37,229 bases of DNA. Source: Syntrophus gentianae. GTDB lineage: Bacteria; Desulfobacterota; Syntrophia; Syntrophales; Syntrophaceae. The notes beneath the pieces are model-generated. The model made no database searches, was not told where the DNA came from, and worked only from the letters and a program-made list of their open reading frames with translations. The DNA is taken from positions 1 to 37,229 of the forward strand of contig NZ_FOBS01000029.1 of assembly GCF_900109885.1 (NCBI RefSeq). The letters run 5' to 3'. Position numbers and translations under genes: made by a program. Below are positions 1,755 to 5,335 of the stretch, piece after piece (the first letter of the stretch is position 1; every line of letters begins with the position of its first letter).

Positions 1755-2120
1755 TTATCCAAACAATGAAGCCACCGCCAGCTTAAGCCCTTCTACTGCC
1801 GCAGCCACTGCGCTCACTGACTTCACAGACTCGGCGATACCGTTCAACAAGGACTTCAGCGTCAAGTGGTTTGGTTTCTCCTTCGAAAGCTCTTCCTTTG
1901 CGGTATGTACCGACTGCACTACTTCGTCGCGATTCACGATCTCGTGCCCATGCTTCTCCAGCGCTTCCAGGACACTGGCCATCTGCTTTTGCACTTCGCG
2001 CAATGCAGCGGATTCCCCCGACTGTATCTGGTTGACAACAGCGTTCTGGCCTACCGCCATGTTGGTCACGGTCATGTTCCCACCTTTCTGTACCACGCCT
2101 TCGATTCGTGTGTACGCCAT
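1755..2120 (-). CDS. Small helical protein of unknown function, second gene of the cassette
   Basis: I do not recognise this 121-residue protein with certainty. The start at 2120 is chosen because GAGGAGGGG sits 4 bases before the ATG. Longer in-frame extensions would overlap the upstream gene. The N-terminal 35 residues have a polar, glycine-broken segment (KGGNMTVTNMAVGQNAVVNQ) likely to be beta-turn rich. The rest is heptad-like helix (LREVQKQMASVLEALEKHG, AKEELSKEKPNH), ending in a hydrophobic helix (LNGIAESVKSVSAVAAAVEG, then LKLAVASLFG). The start is 16 bases after the stop of the membrane-protein gene, so the two are probably co-transcribed. Similar short-Gly-motif plus coiled-coil proteins occur in bacterial conflict loci, but that link is inference. 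Confidence 0.7.
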   Translation of the reverse strand: MAYTRIEGVVQKGGNMTVTNMAVGQNAVVNQIQSGESAALREVQKQMASVLEALEKHGHEIVNRDEVVQSVHTAKEELSKEKPNHLTLKSLLNGIAESVKSVSAVAAAVEGLKLAVASLFG

Positions 2121-2136
2121 AGCACCCCTCCTCGTG

Positions 2137-3702
2137 TCAATTCGATTGTTTTCCAGCAGCCACCGCCTTGGCGGCAAACTGTGAAACCTTCTGCTTCACG
2201 GTCTCGACCTTAGCACCGGCTCCAACCGACAGGTTTTCAGCCGTCATGCTCCCTCCCGAGAGGATCAATCCGTTGTTCAAAATCATCGACTGCCGCTGCT
2301 TCAGCTCCGATACATCCACATTGTTCTCCTCCAGAAACGTCAGGATGGAATCCAGAATGTTCTTCTCCAGAACTTTGAAGTACATCTCTTTGTCCAGCCT
2401 TTGGAAGTACCGGCGATATTCGTGTGGACTCGCCCACTGCCGGAAGGAGAAGCTAGCCCCGTAGTCAAACGTCGGATTATCGAGAATTTGCTTCTTCTCC
2501 TGCCGATGCGCCGACCACCGTTGAATCCGCTCTTGAATGCGACCCAAAAGAACGAATGGGCTATACAAAGTGACGAATGGCGTCGCCACCGCTGTGAAAA
2601 CAAGCATTTTGAAAAACCGTCCAAAGCTAAAGTGCGGACTCATCGAGTCAACCTGCCGAAACCGCTCCCCAACCGGAGTCAATAGAAAGTAGCTGGCCTC
2701 GACGAACAAGTTATAGCTGAGCTTTGAGAATCGAAGAAAAATGGAGAGTACCATTTCGCCACTCCAGTCCACCACCCGCACGCACCGATAATGCCGAAGC
2801 TGCTTCTCGGATTGTTCCAGCATGGCACGCGTCACAGCCTGTTCATCCACCTGATTTAGCGGCCGCGCCAGTGGATCTTCGAGAAATCGTTTATCGTCTC
2901 GAATATCTTGCCCGTTGATGTAGAGCTTATCCTCGATCGTCACTCGATCAAGCTGCAAGCCATTGATGGCCCGCGCTACGCAAGCGTACAAGGCCTCAAG
3001 ACTTACCTCCTTCGGCGCGATTGCTTCTTTAGTAATCGGTACATCCGTGGTTAGCTCGGCCCCGGATAGCGAACTTTCCATGACACTGTCCGCCCGCTTG
3101 CTCAGATCCATAGCGAACGACCAACCACCCATGTTCTCACCCGACCCCACAAACGGAGTAAACCCGCTGTAGATCACGACATTTCCTGTTTCAGCCGCCC
3201 GCAGGTACCCCACTGGCGTGTCGTCTTCAGTCAACATCGTGTCGGGATCAAACCTTCCGCGTAGGAAATTGCTCGTCACAATCGTCCGGGCCCGCGACTT
3301 AAACCATAAGCAGATCGCAAAAGTGACCAGATAAAGAGCCAACAAGATCCCCCATGTCCGATATGTAAAAGCCTCGACCTGCAAGCTGTTGGCGACTACA
3401 ATCACAGCCACCATCGCTGGCAGCAACAACCAAAGTTCCCGGCTGTCCAGCTTCCGCTTTGCGTTTCGACAGTGCCGCACCACCGTCGCCATATCGACGC
3501 CGAAACTCGGACCAATCGCTCGATGCTTATCCTCCAGACAAAACTTTATGACTTGGTTGCGAAATTGCCGGTCAAGATAAGCGGCGGCACAAAGCAACCG
3601 ACTGGTTTCGGAATTTTTATATCTCTCGCCCCCTCCCGCCTTCGGGGCCGACATGATAGCATTGTCTGTGGAGATAGCATCTACCTGATGGGCCAATCTC
3701 AT
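2137..3702 (-). CDS. Large membrane protein of unknown function, first gene of the cassette
   Basis: The 521-residue protein has two adjacent membrane segments (about residues 91-112 and 118-135, LWLLLPAMVAVIVVANSLQV and WGILLALYLVTFAICLWF) and a third hydrophobic stretch near 360-385. A motif resembling GNVVIYSGFTPFVGSGENMG follows the first hairpin and should be cytosolic. The C-terminus carries the element LILSGGSMTAENLSVGAGAK, which matches one in the downstream partner. An N-terminal part (RLLCAAAYLDRQFRNQVI) resembles uncharacterised actinobacterial proteins I recall, but I cannot name a family. The ATG at 3702 follows GCGAGGTG at good spacing. An alternative Met lies 16 codons in. The gene lies between the capA repeats, next to AT-rich DNA, suggesting acquisition. 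Confidence 0.75.
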   Translation of the reverse strand: MRLAHQVDAISTDNAIMSAPKAGGGERYKNSETSRLLCAAAYLDRQFRNQVIKFCLEDKHRAIGPSFGVDMATVVRHCRNAKRKLDSRELWLLLPAMVAVIVVANSLQVEAFTYRTWGILLALYLVTFAICLWFKSRARTIVTSNFLRGRFDPDTMLTEDDTPVGYLRAAETGNVVIYSGFTPFVGSGENMGGWSFAMDLSKRADSVMESSLSGAELTTDVPITKEAIAPKEVSLEALYACVARAINGLQLDRVTIEDKLYINGQDIRDDKRFLEDPLARPLNQVDEQAVTRAMLEQSEKQLRHYRCVRVVDWSGEMVLSIFLRFSKLSYNLFVEASYFLLTPVGERFRQVDSMSPHFSFGRFFKMLVFTAVATPFVTLYSPFVLLGRIQERIQRWSAHRQEKKQILDNPTFDYGASFSFRQWASPHEYRRYFQRLDKEMYFKVLEKNILDSILTFLEENNVDVSELKQRQSMILNNGLILSGGSMTAENLSVGAGAKVETVKQKVSQFAAKAVAAGKQSN

Positions 3703-4147
3703 ATGACACCTCGCTTTAAAGCCATTTTTAGTTTTATGACAACATTATCTTTAGCCTTCACTACAAGCGGTCCTCTTCTGGGGAATAATCTTTTCGAATT
3801 ATTTTTCTCTGCACTTTTGAGTCTACAATTGTTGTTGAAATTCGTTTCACAGGATGACGGAGATAAGGTTGGCAGGCACAAAGCTATTGAATTTACATAT
3901 AAAAGCTTTAATAAAAATCTCCCAGTATGTGTATATTTTTTTCTTAGTTTGTAAAATTTTATCATTAAAAGTTGAATTATTCTATACTAGTAAAATAAAC
4001 AATATATCCCAGTGAAAAACTGTAAATACAATATAAGAACGTGATTGTGGCGAAATCAGCGGAATAGGCAGATTGTAACGATTGATATTTTGATTCGATT
4101 ATTTACGACAGAAATCTTGAATTATTCTGATGATCCAATTCTTATTG
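3703..4147. other. AT-rich non-coding stretch upstream of the cassette
   Basis: This stretch is far richer in A+T than its surroundings (long A and T runs, CAATATAT, TATAAGAA). An open frame on the minus strand (3699-3965, 88 codons) ends with its TGA overlapping the ATG of the membrane-protein gene. However, its composition is that of random AT-rich DNA (many Lys and Asn, no domain-like pattern), so I do not call it a gene. The cassette's promoter probably lies here, but no single pair of boxes stands out. The sharp composition change supports horizontal origin of the insert. Confidence 0.5.
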
Positions 4148-5335
4148 AGGAAGTAATTTTCAGAGGTGACCTACCGGAATGATCCTAAAAAAGTGCCGAA
4201 AGGGTGCTTTTTCTTCCGTCAAAAAGCTCTATTAAAAAACCGGCTTTTCAATGGCTACCCAAATCGGCATGGGAGTGCGGCCTGCTTCCCTTCCAGATAA
4301 ATTTAAGGAAGATAGGCTGGTTCCTTCCCCTGATTTACCACACCAGACTCAGGCTTAGGTCTTCTTCGAGCTTCACGGCCGTGCCGAAGATCCTTCCTTC
4401 CCGGTTCAACATGCCTTCAATCCAGCAAACATCTTTTCTTGCCGCCCTTTCCAGACGAAAACGTTTGCAGGTCATGACGACCAGGCGAAGGCCGGTAAGA
4501 CGGCCCATCAGGGGATCGATGATCGGAAAGTAGAGGATGCCCAGGTCACTGCGAAACTCCTTGTATCCGCCTATCCCTTCATAGTCGTTGATCAGATCAC
4601 CACAGCCGTAGAGGATCAGCTTGCCCCTGTATACGTCGATGCCGATCGCATGATGGGAAGAATGGCCATGAAGAATGTCCACGTTTGCTTCATCAATAAG
4701 ATGGTGGGCAAAGCGGATGTGTTCTTCCGGTACCCCGTATCCCCAGTTGCCACCCCAATGGATGGAAACCACGGCAATATCCCCGCTCTGCTTTACCTTG
4801 CGTATCTCCTTTCCAATTGCGTTCACGGTTTCGGCACAAAAATCCTGCAGTTCGGCAATACCTGGATGGCTCTCCGATGCCGACCAGCCGGGCATGACAC
4901 CGCTCGATTCATCTCCGAAAGCAAAGACAAGCACCCGTCCCCTGCCGGGAAGATCCTGAATCGCCGGGAGCCGCGCCTCTTCCGCATTTCTGCCTGCCCC
5001 GGAAGTCTTCATCCCGGCCATTTTAAGGGTGGTTATGGTTTCCAGAAGGCCCTGGTATCCCCAGTCGAGGACATGGTTATTTGCGAGGCAGCAGACATCT
5101 ATTCGGGCAGCCTGGAGACAGGGGACATTTCTGGGATTCATTCGGTAGTTGATGCCCTTGCCCACCCAGTAATCGTCACTCGTCGTGATGCTGGTCTCCA
5201 GGTTGATGATCCGTGCATCCGGTGCCTGTGCCGCAATCTCGGCCAGGGAATTCCCCCAGATATAGCCGAAATCAACGGGCTTGGGTATGACACCGTTCAC
5301 CTCCTCGGCAAGATCAACATAGCCTCTCGCATCTT
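4148..5335. repeat. Direct repeat, right copy (~1.19 kb, capA segment)
   Basis: This is the partner of 338-1519, in the same orientation. It lies inside, and extends just beyond the 3' end of, the intact capA gene. At the right boundary (5335) this copy continues into normal capA codons, whereas the left copy switches to REP-like sequence. This copy is therefore the parental one, and the left one is the broken duplicate. Confidence 0.9.

Follow-up and report, generated by a model that had tools for sequence, protein, structure and literature searches.

A two-gene unit encoding a membrane protein and a small partner

The window, a stretch of 37,229 nucleotides from Syntrophus gentianae, carries on its minus strand a gene for a 521-residue membrane protein (P0002), followed at a distance of 16 bases by a gene for a 121-residue partner (P0001). 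The features of the locus are as follows:

2137..3702, minus strand: P0002, membrane protein of 521 aa, ATG start
3289..3450, minus strand: membrane hairpin of P0002, residues 85-138, from hydropathy and the AlphaFold model
2542..2616, minus strand: third hydrophobic segment of P0002, residues 363-387, within the long helix 360-408 (hydropathy, model)
2194..2271, minus strand: C-terminal matched motif of P0002, residues 478-503, GLILSGGSMTAENLSVGAGAKVETVK, of low confidence in the monomer model
2121..2136, minus strand: gap of 16 bases between P0002 and P0001, with a Shine-Dalgarno-like GAGGAGG ahead of the P0001 ATG
1755..2120, minus strand: P0001, partner of 121 aa, ATG start
2022..2099, minus strand: N-terminal matched motif of P0001, residues 8-33, GVVQKGGNMTVTNMAVGQNAVVNQIQ
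1764..2012, minus strand: helical-bundle body of P0001, residues 37-119, DUF5955-like (below the Pfam cut-off)

A preliminary description of this DNA had taken the two genes for a unit, and their spacing, the ribosome-binding site and the presence of homologues in three phyla bear this out. From its N-terminus, P0002 comprises a helical part, the transmembrane hairpin, an alpha/beta domain, the third hydrophobic segment, a helical region and the C-terminal motif. The hairpin, which had also been proposed, was recovered in two ways: residues 85-114 and 112-138 are covered by windows of at least 1.4 on the Kyte-Doolittle scale (19 residues), and the AlphaFold model contains long helices at 71-108 and 114-145. 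The core of this model is confident (mean pLDDT 84.5, pTM 0.82); values below 50 are confined to residues 1-23 and to almost the whole of 479-521, and the motif (pLDDT 36-46) lies next to the confident core. The small protein had been called helical and a coiled coil. The first is supported by the four-helix bundle that forms the partner domain in the AlphaFold model of L029, a homologue in which the two genes are naturally fused, the second is without support, and the bundle form predicted for the P0001 body is taken from that homologous domain.

Neither protein reaches the cut-off of any Pfam or NCBIfam family, in agreement with the initial impression that no housekeeping family is involved, and Pfam detected no NTPase, CHAT or EAD1 domain in either. 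The P0002 sequence found no match in the PDB up to E 1. Foldseek searches with the P0002 model and the bundle model returned no match at E 0.001 or better, so that the sensor and executor roles proposed below are without structural support. In VIA comparisons, P0002 reached a best Z of 6.2; its residues 180-465 gave weak and tied rows with folds of the Bet v 1/StARkin and KA1 types, and the bundle scored Z 7.7 with UPF0147 and Z 6.7 with PisI; a fold assignment from these rows was dropped, the tool's own note being that they may merely reflect a common arrangement. Residues 393-495 of P0002 weakly matched retron RTs, which we put down to chance.

The cassette is bracketed by a directly duplicated PGA_cap (capsule-synthesis-like) gene, whose copies at 338-1519 and 4148-5335 are 96% identical, the left one truncated and lacking a start. 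G+C content is 31% in 3703-4150 versus 53-55% in the P0001 and P0002 genes. The repeats and AT-rich DNA initially claimed for the flanks are thus present. The claimed insertion sequence amounts to 39 codons (117-1), ended by the contig edge, which we take to be the start of an IS21-type transposase; a Pfam search of these codons did not confirm a transposase. We found no mobile element carrying the cassette, and beyond the duplicated flanks the suggested mobile context is without support. A 39-base repeat at 1522-1560 recurs five more times in the genome, on contigs C6 and C17, at 92-95% identity, and a 22-base exact repeat occurs in the left flank at 217-238 and 309-330. Phage and viral collections contained no P0002 relatives; the plasmid collection contained two records with P0002 relatives and none with relatives of P0001. 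Searches against PHROGs gave no match for P0002; those for P0001 were weak, the best at E 0.0079.

Distribution of the family

The best 80 of 117 P0002 relatives from a genome-collection scan belong to Actinomycetota, Cyanobacteriota and Chloroflexota. Among these 80, the cyanobacterial loci come from Brasilonema, Tolypothrix, Fischerella, Scytonema and Richelia, and those of Chloroflexota from Dictyobacter and one groundwater MAG. Together with two loci from the plasmid collection and the window itself, they form the set of 83 loci used below.

The family is rare and patchily distributed. In the window's own phylum, a single-sequence query detected it in one genome out of 395, the window itself. 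Other draws gave at least 1/292 genomes for the L004 phylum (this one being the centre), at least 2/251 for that of L007 (one the centre) and at least 16/396 for that of L032; the 16 include two already known and one chance-like case (G1068), and G1115 and G1136 from the same draw gave only the motif-less subfamily described below. All draws are lower bounds, few candidates having been scored per genome.

The closest P0002 relative among the loci compared is actinomycetal (L109, 42% identity). A tree built from 42 cores places the window together with Chloroflexota and Cyanobacteriota (97/90), beside actinomycetal branches. This pattern suggests that the family may have been transferred between phyla, which stays a suggestion because the tree has only a midpoint root and several of its rows, including the window's, have an unusual composition.

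Pairing of the large and the small gene

The two genes do occur together, the point on which the preliminary description had made its reading depend: a model built from the small proteins identified a partner adjacent to the large gene in 76 of the 83 loci. The partner usually lies directly downstream; it is divergent and upstream in L004 and upstream in L082. Seven loci have no partner called by the model. One of them is L029, in which both genes are fused around one motif, in the order core, motif, four-helix bundle, with pLDDT below 50 confined to residues 1-31 and the region of the motif. An EAD1 gene lies downstream in L058 and a CHAT gene in L006, and the other four (L011, L025, with 317 bases of downstream DNA covered, L057 and L080) have no recognised partner. 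The genome of Actinokineospora iranica contains the large gene twice (L032 and L057), once with a partner and once without.

A second, actinomycetal set added 14 new loci outside the motif-less subfamily, 12 of them with a partner and two (L116, L118) with none; L126, which is cut by the contig end and has no recognised partner, was left out of this count. The motif-less subfamily itself (L122, L123, L128-L136) is divergent and actinomycetal, and its tails, inspected by eye, are devoid of the motif described in the next section. No partner was found in any of its 11 loci when flanks of about 1.5 kb were searched. In nine of the 11, the same genome gave another family member too.

A matched motif joins the two proteins

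The initial architecture, a membrane protein with a small helical partner, was correct and missed the central feature of the pair: a motif of about 25 residues, rich in Gly, Asn, Ala and Val, that P0002 carries at its C-terminus and P0001 at its N-terminus (the alignment spans 26 residues). The motif diverges across loci and stays matched inside each locus, as illustrated by the tails and heads of L066 (INGNVGALATG/IDGNVGAIATG), L115 (SGDITGPANIG/HGDISGPSNFG) and L121 (NVQNQPGALGS/NVQNQPGAFNS).

The main analysis of this correspondence used 22 representative pairs with core identity below 60%. The cognate tail-head scores summed to 1470, versus a maximum of 1149 over 100,000 shuffles, and cognate combinations outscored swapped ones in 223 of 231 comparisons. 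Broken down by core identity, the cognate was favoured in 53/53 comparisons below 30%, 152/153 at 30-40% and 18/25 at 40-60%, swapped combinations winning in the remaining seven of these closer relatives. For 12 pairs of the second set, the cognate head ranked first in 11, all 66 swaps favoured the cognate, and the cognate sum was 937 versus a maximum of 760 over 200,000 shuffles. Since the pairs are related, the permutation figures have limited force, and more weight falls on the swaps made at low core identity. The matching is specific to the motif-bearing stretch: tails reached a mean score of 67, versus 21 for the 75-residue stretch upstream. A model built from small proteins only (A4) matched four large-protein tails in nine genomes (E 5.8e-6 to 5.6e-4); lower E-values elsewhere came from an iterated model that already contained tails.

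Similarity of this kind could be an artefact of low-complexity composition or of recent local duplication or gene conversion, as the abundance of Gly, Ala and Asn might suggest. Two pairs, L003 and L137, do show an excess of shared codons over expectation (20 of 22 and 12 of 13 identical residues, respectively). However, controls of shuffled composition gave z values of 4.9 to 18.7 in all 22 pairs, and both swap tests favour the cognate. Over all pairs, 288 of 494 identical residues share a codon, when 264 are expected from codon usage; this agreement is near expectation, so the match has overall been kept at the protein level, and recent duplication or gene conversion was ruled out as its general origin. 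We therefore regard an artefact as very improbable, and a motif-mediated link between cognate proteins as highly likely.

The window's tail scores higher with the heads of four other representatives than with its own (rank 5 of 23), and the window's pair is of a common, non-exclusive motif class. The motifs of L066, L115 and L137 are strongly diverged. Two motif types occur within single genomes, for example L120 and L137 in G1072 and L117 and L138 in G1277.

The partner body is exchangeable

The bodies behind the motif are mostly helical. That of P0001 resembles DUF5955 (PF19380; 26.1 bits, E 1.2e-5), yet stays below the curated Pfam cut-off of 27.1, as do L030 (26.6 bits) and L066 (18.4 bits); the partners of L004, L018, L109 and L115, and the motif-bundle protein of L090, showed no DUF5955 match. 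P0001 also matches the PADLOC model PDC-M14B (E 3.9e-7), restricted to its C-terminal third (positions 158-256 of 267) and without the first 157 positions; nine of 30 partners match this model. The JukA profile gave E 8e-4 over positions 70-157 of 234, with a match in one of 30 partners.

In some relatives the body is a different domain. The partner in L098 is a CHAT protein (PF12770, E 6.9e-12) whose motif matches that of the large protein (z 9.2), and the partner in L008 is an EAD1 protein (PF19955, E 1.9e-14), again with a motif match (z 8.0). EAD1 denotes an effector-associated domain, a term that occurs in Kaur et al. 2020 (PMC7159879). For genes in the same position, the motif match was not significant in the EAD1 gene of L058 (z 2.5) or in the CHAT gene of L006 (z 1.6), the latter being frame-broken within the motif. 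At L006:7681-8383, the N-terminal motif and the protease part of CHAT are in different frames, near a run of A. EAD1 proteins lie downstream in two Frankia relatives; P0001 itself is not an EAD1 protein.

These partners bear on an alternative in which the motif serves stoichiometric docking, by beta-augmentation or as a short beta-solenoid and with no polymer, P0002 being a membrane toxin that P0001 inhibits or neutralises as an antitoxin, or else P0001 being a chaperone or assembly subunit. A small partner 16 bases downstream, overlaps of four bases between the two genes in several relatives, the L029 fusion and cognate matching, as expected of toxin-antitoxin specificity, would all suit such an arrangement. 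It accounts less well for the identity of the motifs, which heterotypic docking does not need and which would rather point to homotypic stacking; moreover, CHAT or EAD1 bodies are not antitoxin-like, and large genes occur without a recognised partner (L011, L057, L080, L116). On balance we consider docking unlikely, if worth keeping in mind, and assembly of the motif in a polymeric beta-arch or amyloid mode probable.

Neighbourhood and relation to immune-type proteins

A search with the partner alignment found the motif and bundle also elsewhere in the genomes of L004 and L007. At L089:2-2607, a CHAT-motif-bundle gene precedes a NACHT gene, and the motif is matched at the N-terminus of the NACHT protein (z 10.7). 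At L095:1420-3252, in the Brasilonema genome of L004, a ROCO-type COR protein ends in a GDN-type motif that matches the neighbouring DUF4926-motif-bundle protein (z 9.8). By contrast with these scores, the motif-bundle protein of L090 did not match the C-terminus of the neighbouring FGE-sulfatase-domain protein (z -1.1). The bundles of L089, L090 and L095 all match PDC-M14B models. By sequence, the P0001 architecture thus appears tied to known immune-type proteins, and the role in conflict that was initially suggested is indirectly supported, because CHAT and EAD1 occur as partner bodies and motif-bundle proteins are encoded beside CHAT/NACHT and ROCO genes. L095 represents another matched-end pair, with no NLR seen within the short stretch examined, and L093, in the same genome, resembles its arrangement by eye.

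In the S. gentianae genome, no NACHT domain exceeded the cut-off (one weak match, E 4.4e-4) and NB-ARC had no match. A CHAT protein of this genome is a candidate for a partner in trans; the parts inspected by eye, which do not cover its start, show no such motif.

The surroundings of the family are heterogeneous, and the fixed metabolic context that would have spoken for another role was not seen: 72 ORFs scanned out of 123, from 25 loci, match 64 Pfam families, none of them in more than two ORFs, many of these ORFs perhaps not being genes. Of these 64 families the first 25 were inspected by name, and an NLR may lie near some P0002 relatives. PADLOC models assigned the 72 ORFs to 20 families with one ORF each, including PDC-M02B (E 6.7e-58), mads components and AriA, so no defence neighbour recurs and no enrichment typical of defence islands was seen around these 25 loci. 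In Nonomuraea gerenzanensis (L003:3679-10891), the pair lies between ORFs that resemble, by eye, ribosomal protein S12 and RNA polymerase beta'.

Part of this evidence would fit a signalling complex of the membrane in filamentous bacteria, devoted to development or envelope stress and not to immunity or death, with P0002 as a phospho-dependent sensor and P0001 as a scaffold. The loci lie mostly in genera that we presume to be filamentous and differentiating, an occurrence that counts equally for the signalling pair proposed below, and recurrent defence neighbours are absent from the ORFs scanned. The large protein has an N-terminal FHA domain in L003 and L098, an option that such a sensor could use, and downstream of the CHAT gene of L098 there is an ORF that looks, by eye, like a protein kinase. 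The patchy occurrence in the phyla of L004, L007 and L032 (counts above, centre genomes included), the diversification of the motif, the CHAT and EAD1 partners and the tree branch that mixes phyla all argue against it. We rate this explanation as improbable, marginally more so than docking. Immunity or regulated cell death, our preferred field of action for the pair, has in our estimate an even chance.

Proposed mechanism

Taken together, our results lead us to favour, by a small margin of confidence, the view that P0002 and P0001 together make up a signalling pair of the amyloid type, anchored in the membrane and lacking an NLR. The matched ends that vary together from locus to locus suggest a prion-like switch such as operates in immunity and cell suicide, here possibly without the usual receptor. 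The motif of P0002, unfolded in the monomer, would be clustered once the membrane or cytosolic part of the protein senses a cue. The clustered motifs would form a beta-arch or amyloid-like nucleus that templates the motif of the cognate P0001, and this templating would recruit many P0001 bundles (in relatives, CHAT proteases or EAD1 adaptors) to the membrane, where the assembled bodies would execute or relay a death or defence response. Once diverged, the motifs would prevent parallel pairs from setting each other off. What varies among relatives is the body of the partner (bundle, CHAT or EAD1), and for this reason we assign sensing to P0002 and the executing or recruiting role to the small protein, an orientation that we find somewhat better than evenly supported.

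More tentatively, and with rather less than even confidence, the family could represent a bacterial class of NLR-independent transmembrane amyloid signalosomes. Each would carry a fast-diversifying C-terminal beta-arch 'key' and a matching N-terminal 'lock' on an adjacent executor, whose body is a pore-forming-like bundle, a CHAT protease or an EAD1 adaptor, and differing motifs would insulate parallel death pathways within one genome.

The pair offers a tangible candidate answer to the published question of NLR-independent signalling amyloids and makes that question testable. More than 30 naturally diversified cognate motif pairs (22 and 12) are at hand for work on specificity and assembly, with the motif-less subfamily as a natural control. 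A possible function is also offered for an unnamed membrane family and for DUF5955-like bundles.

Comparison with known systems

We found no paper describing the P0002/P0001 pair in the open-access literature searched, nor any on DUF5955/DUF6232. The closest parallel is offered by the bacterial amyloid signalosomes called BASS, reportedly the subject of Dyrka et al. 2020. According to the literature on them (PMC7889193, PMC8086366, PMC9815663), a motif at the C-terminus of the BASS executor pairs with one at the N-terminus of an NLR; the motifs have 20-40 residues and fall into ten families, CHAT is among the associated domains, and the systems are widespread in multicellular Actinomycetes and Cyanobacteria. 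BASS3 and PUASM have been examined by a foci assay in Podospora (PMC9815663). Measured against this description, P0002 and P0001 are alike in carrying the same short motif at the C-terminus and N-terminus of adjacent products. They differ in that the protein with the C-terminal motif is a large, multi-segment membrane protein, apparently in place of the small Bell domain described for BASS, and the protein with the N-terminal motif consists of a small bundle of helices, or of CHAT or EAD1, in place of an NLR. As regards the Bell domain, P0002 has no Pfam domain over the cut-off and no significant Foldseek match. The proposed sensor would also sit at the opposite end from that described for BASS, with sensing on P0002 and its C-terminal motif and execution on the partner with the N-terminal motif. 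We therefore set the pair beside BASS as a putative variant and not as a member, because the NLR, a defining feature, is absent.

A broader comparison can be made with HET-S/NWD2 in fungi and RHIM-type motifs in mammals, in which, as described in PMC7889193, a short motif is templated homotypically from sensor to executor with cognate specificity. P0002/P0001, known from sequence, would differ from these systems in being bacterial, located at the membrane on the side of the C-terminal motif and NLR-independent, and would resemble them in the postulated templating of a motif from sensor to executor and in the specificity between parallel pairs.
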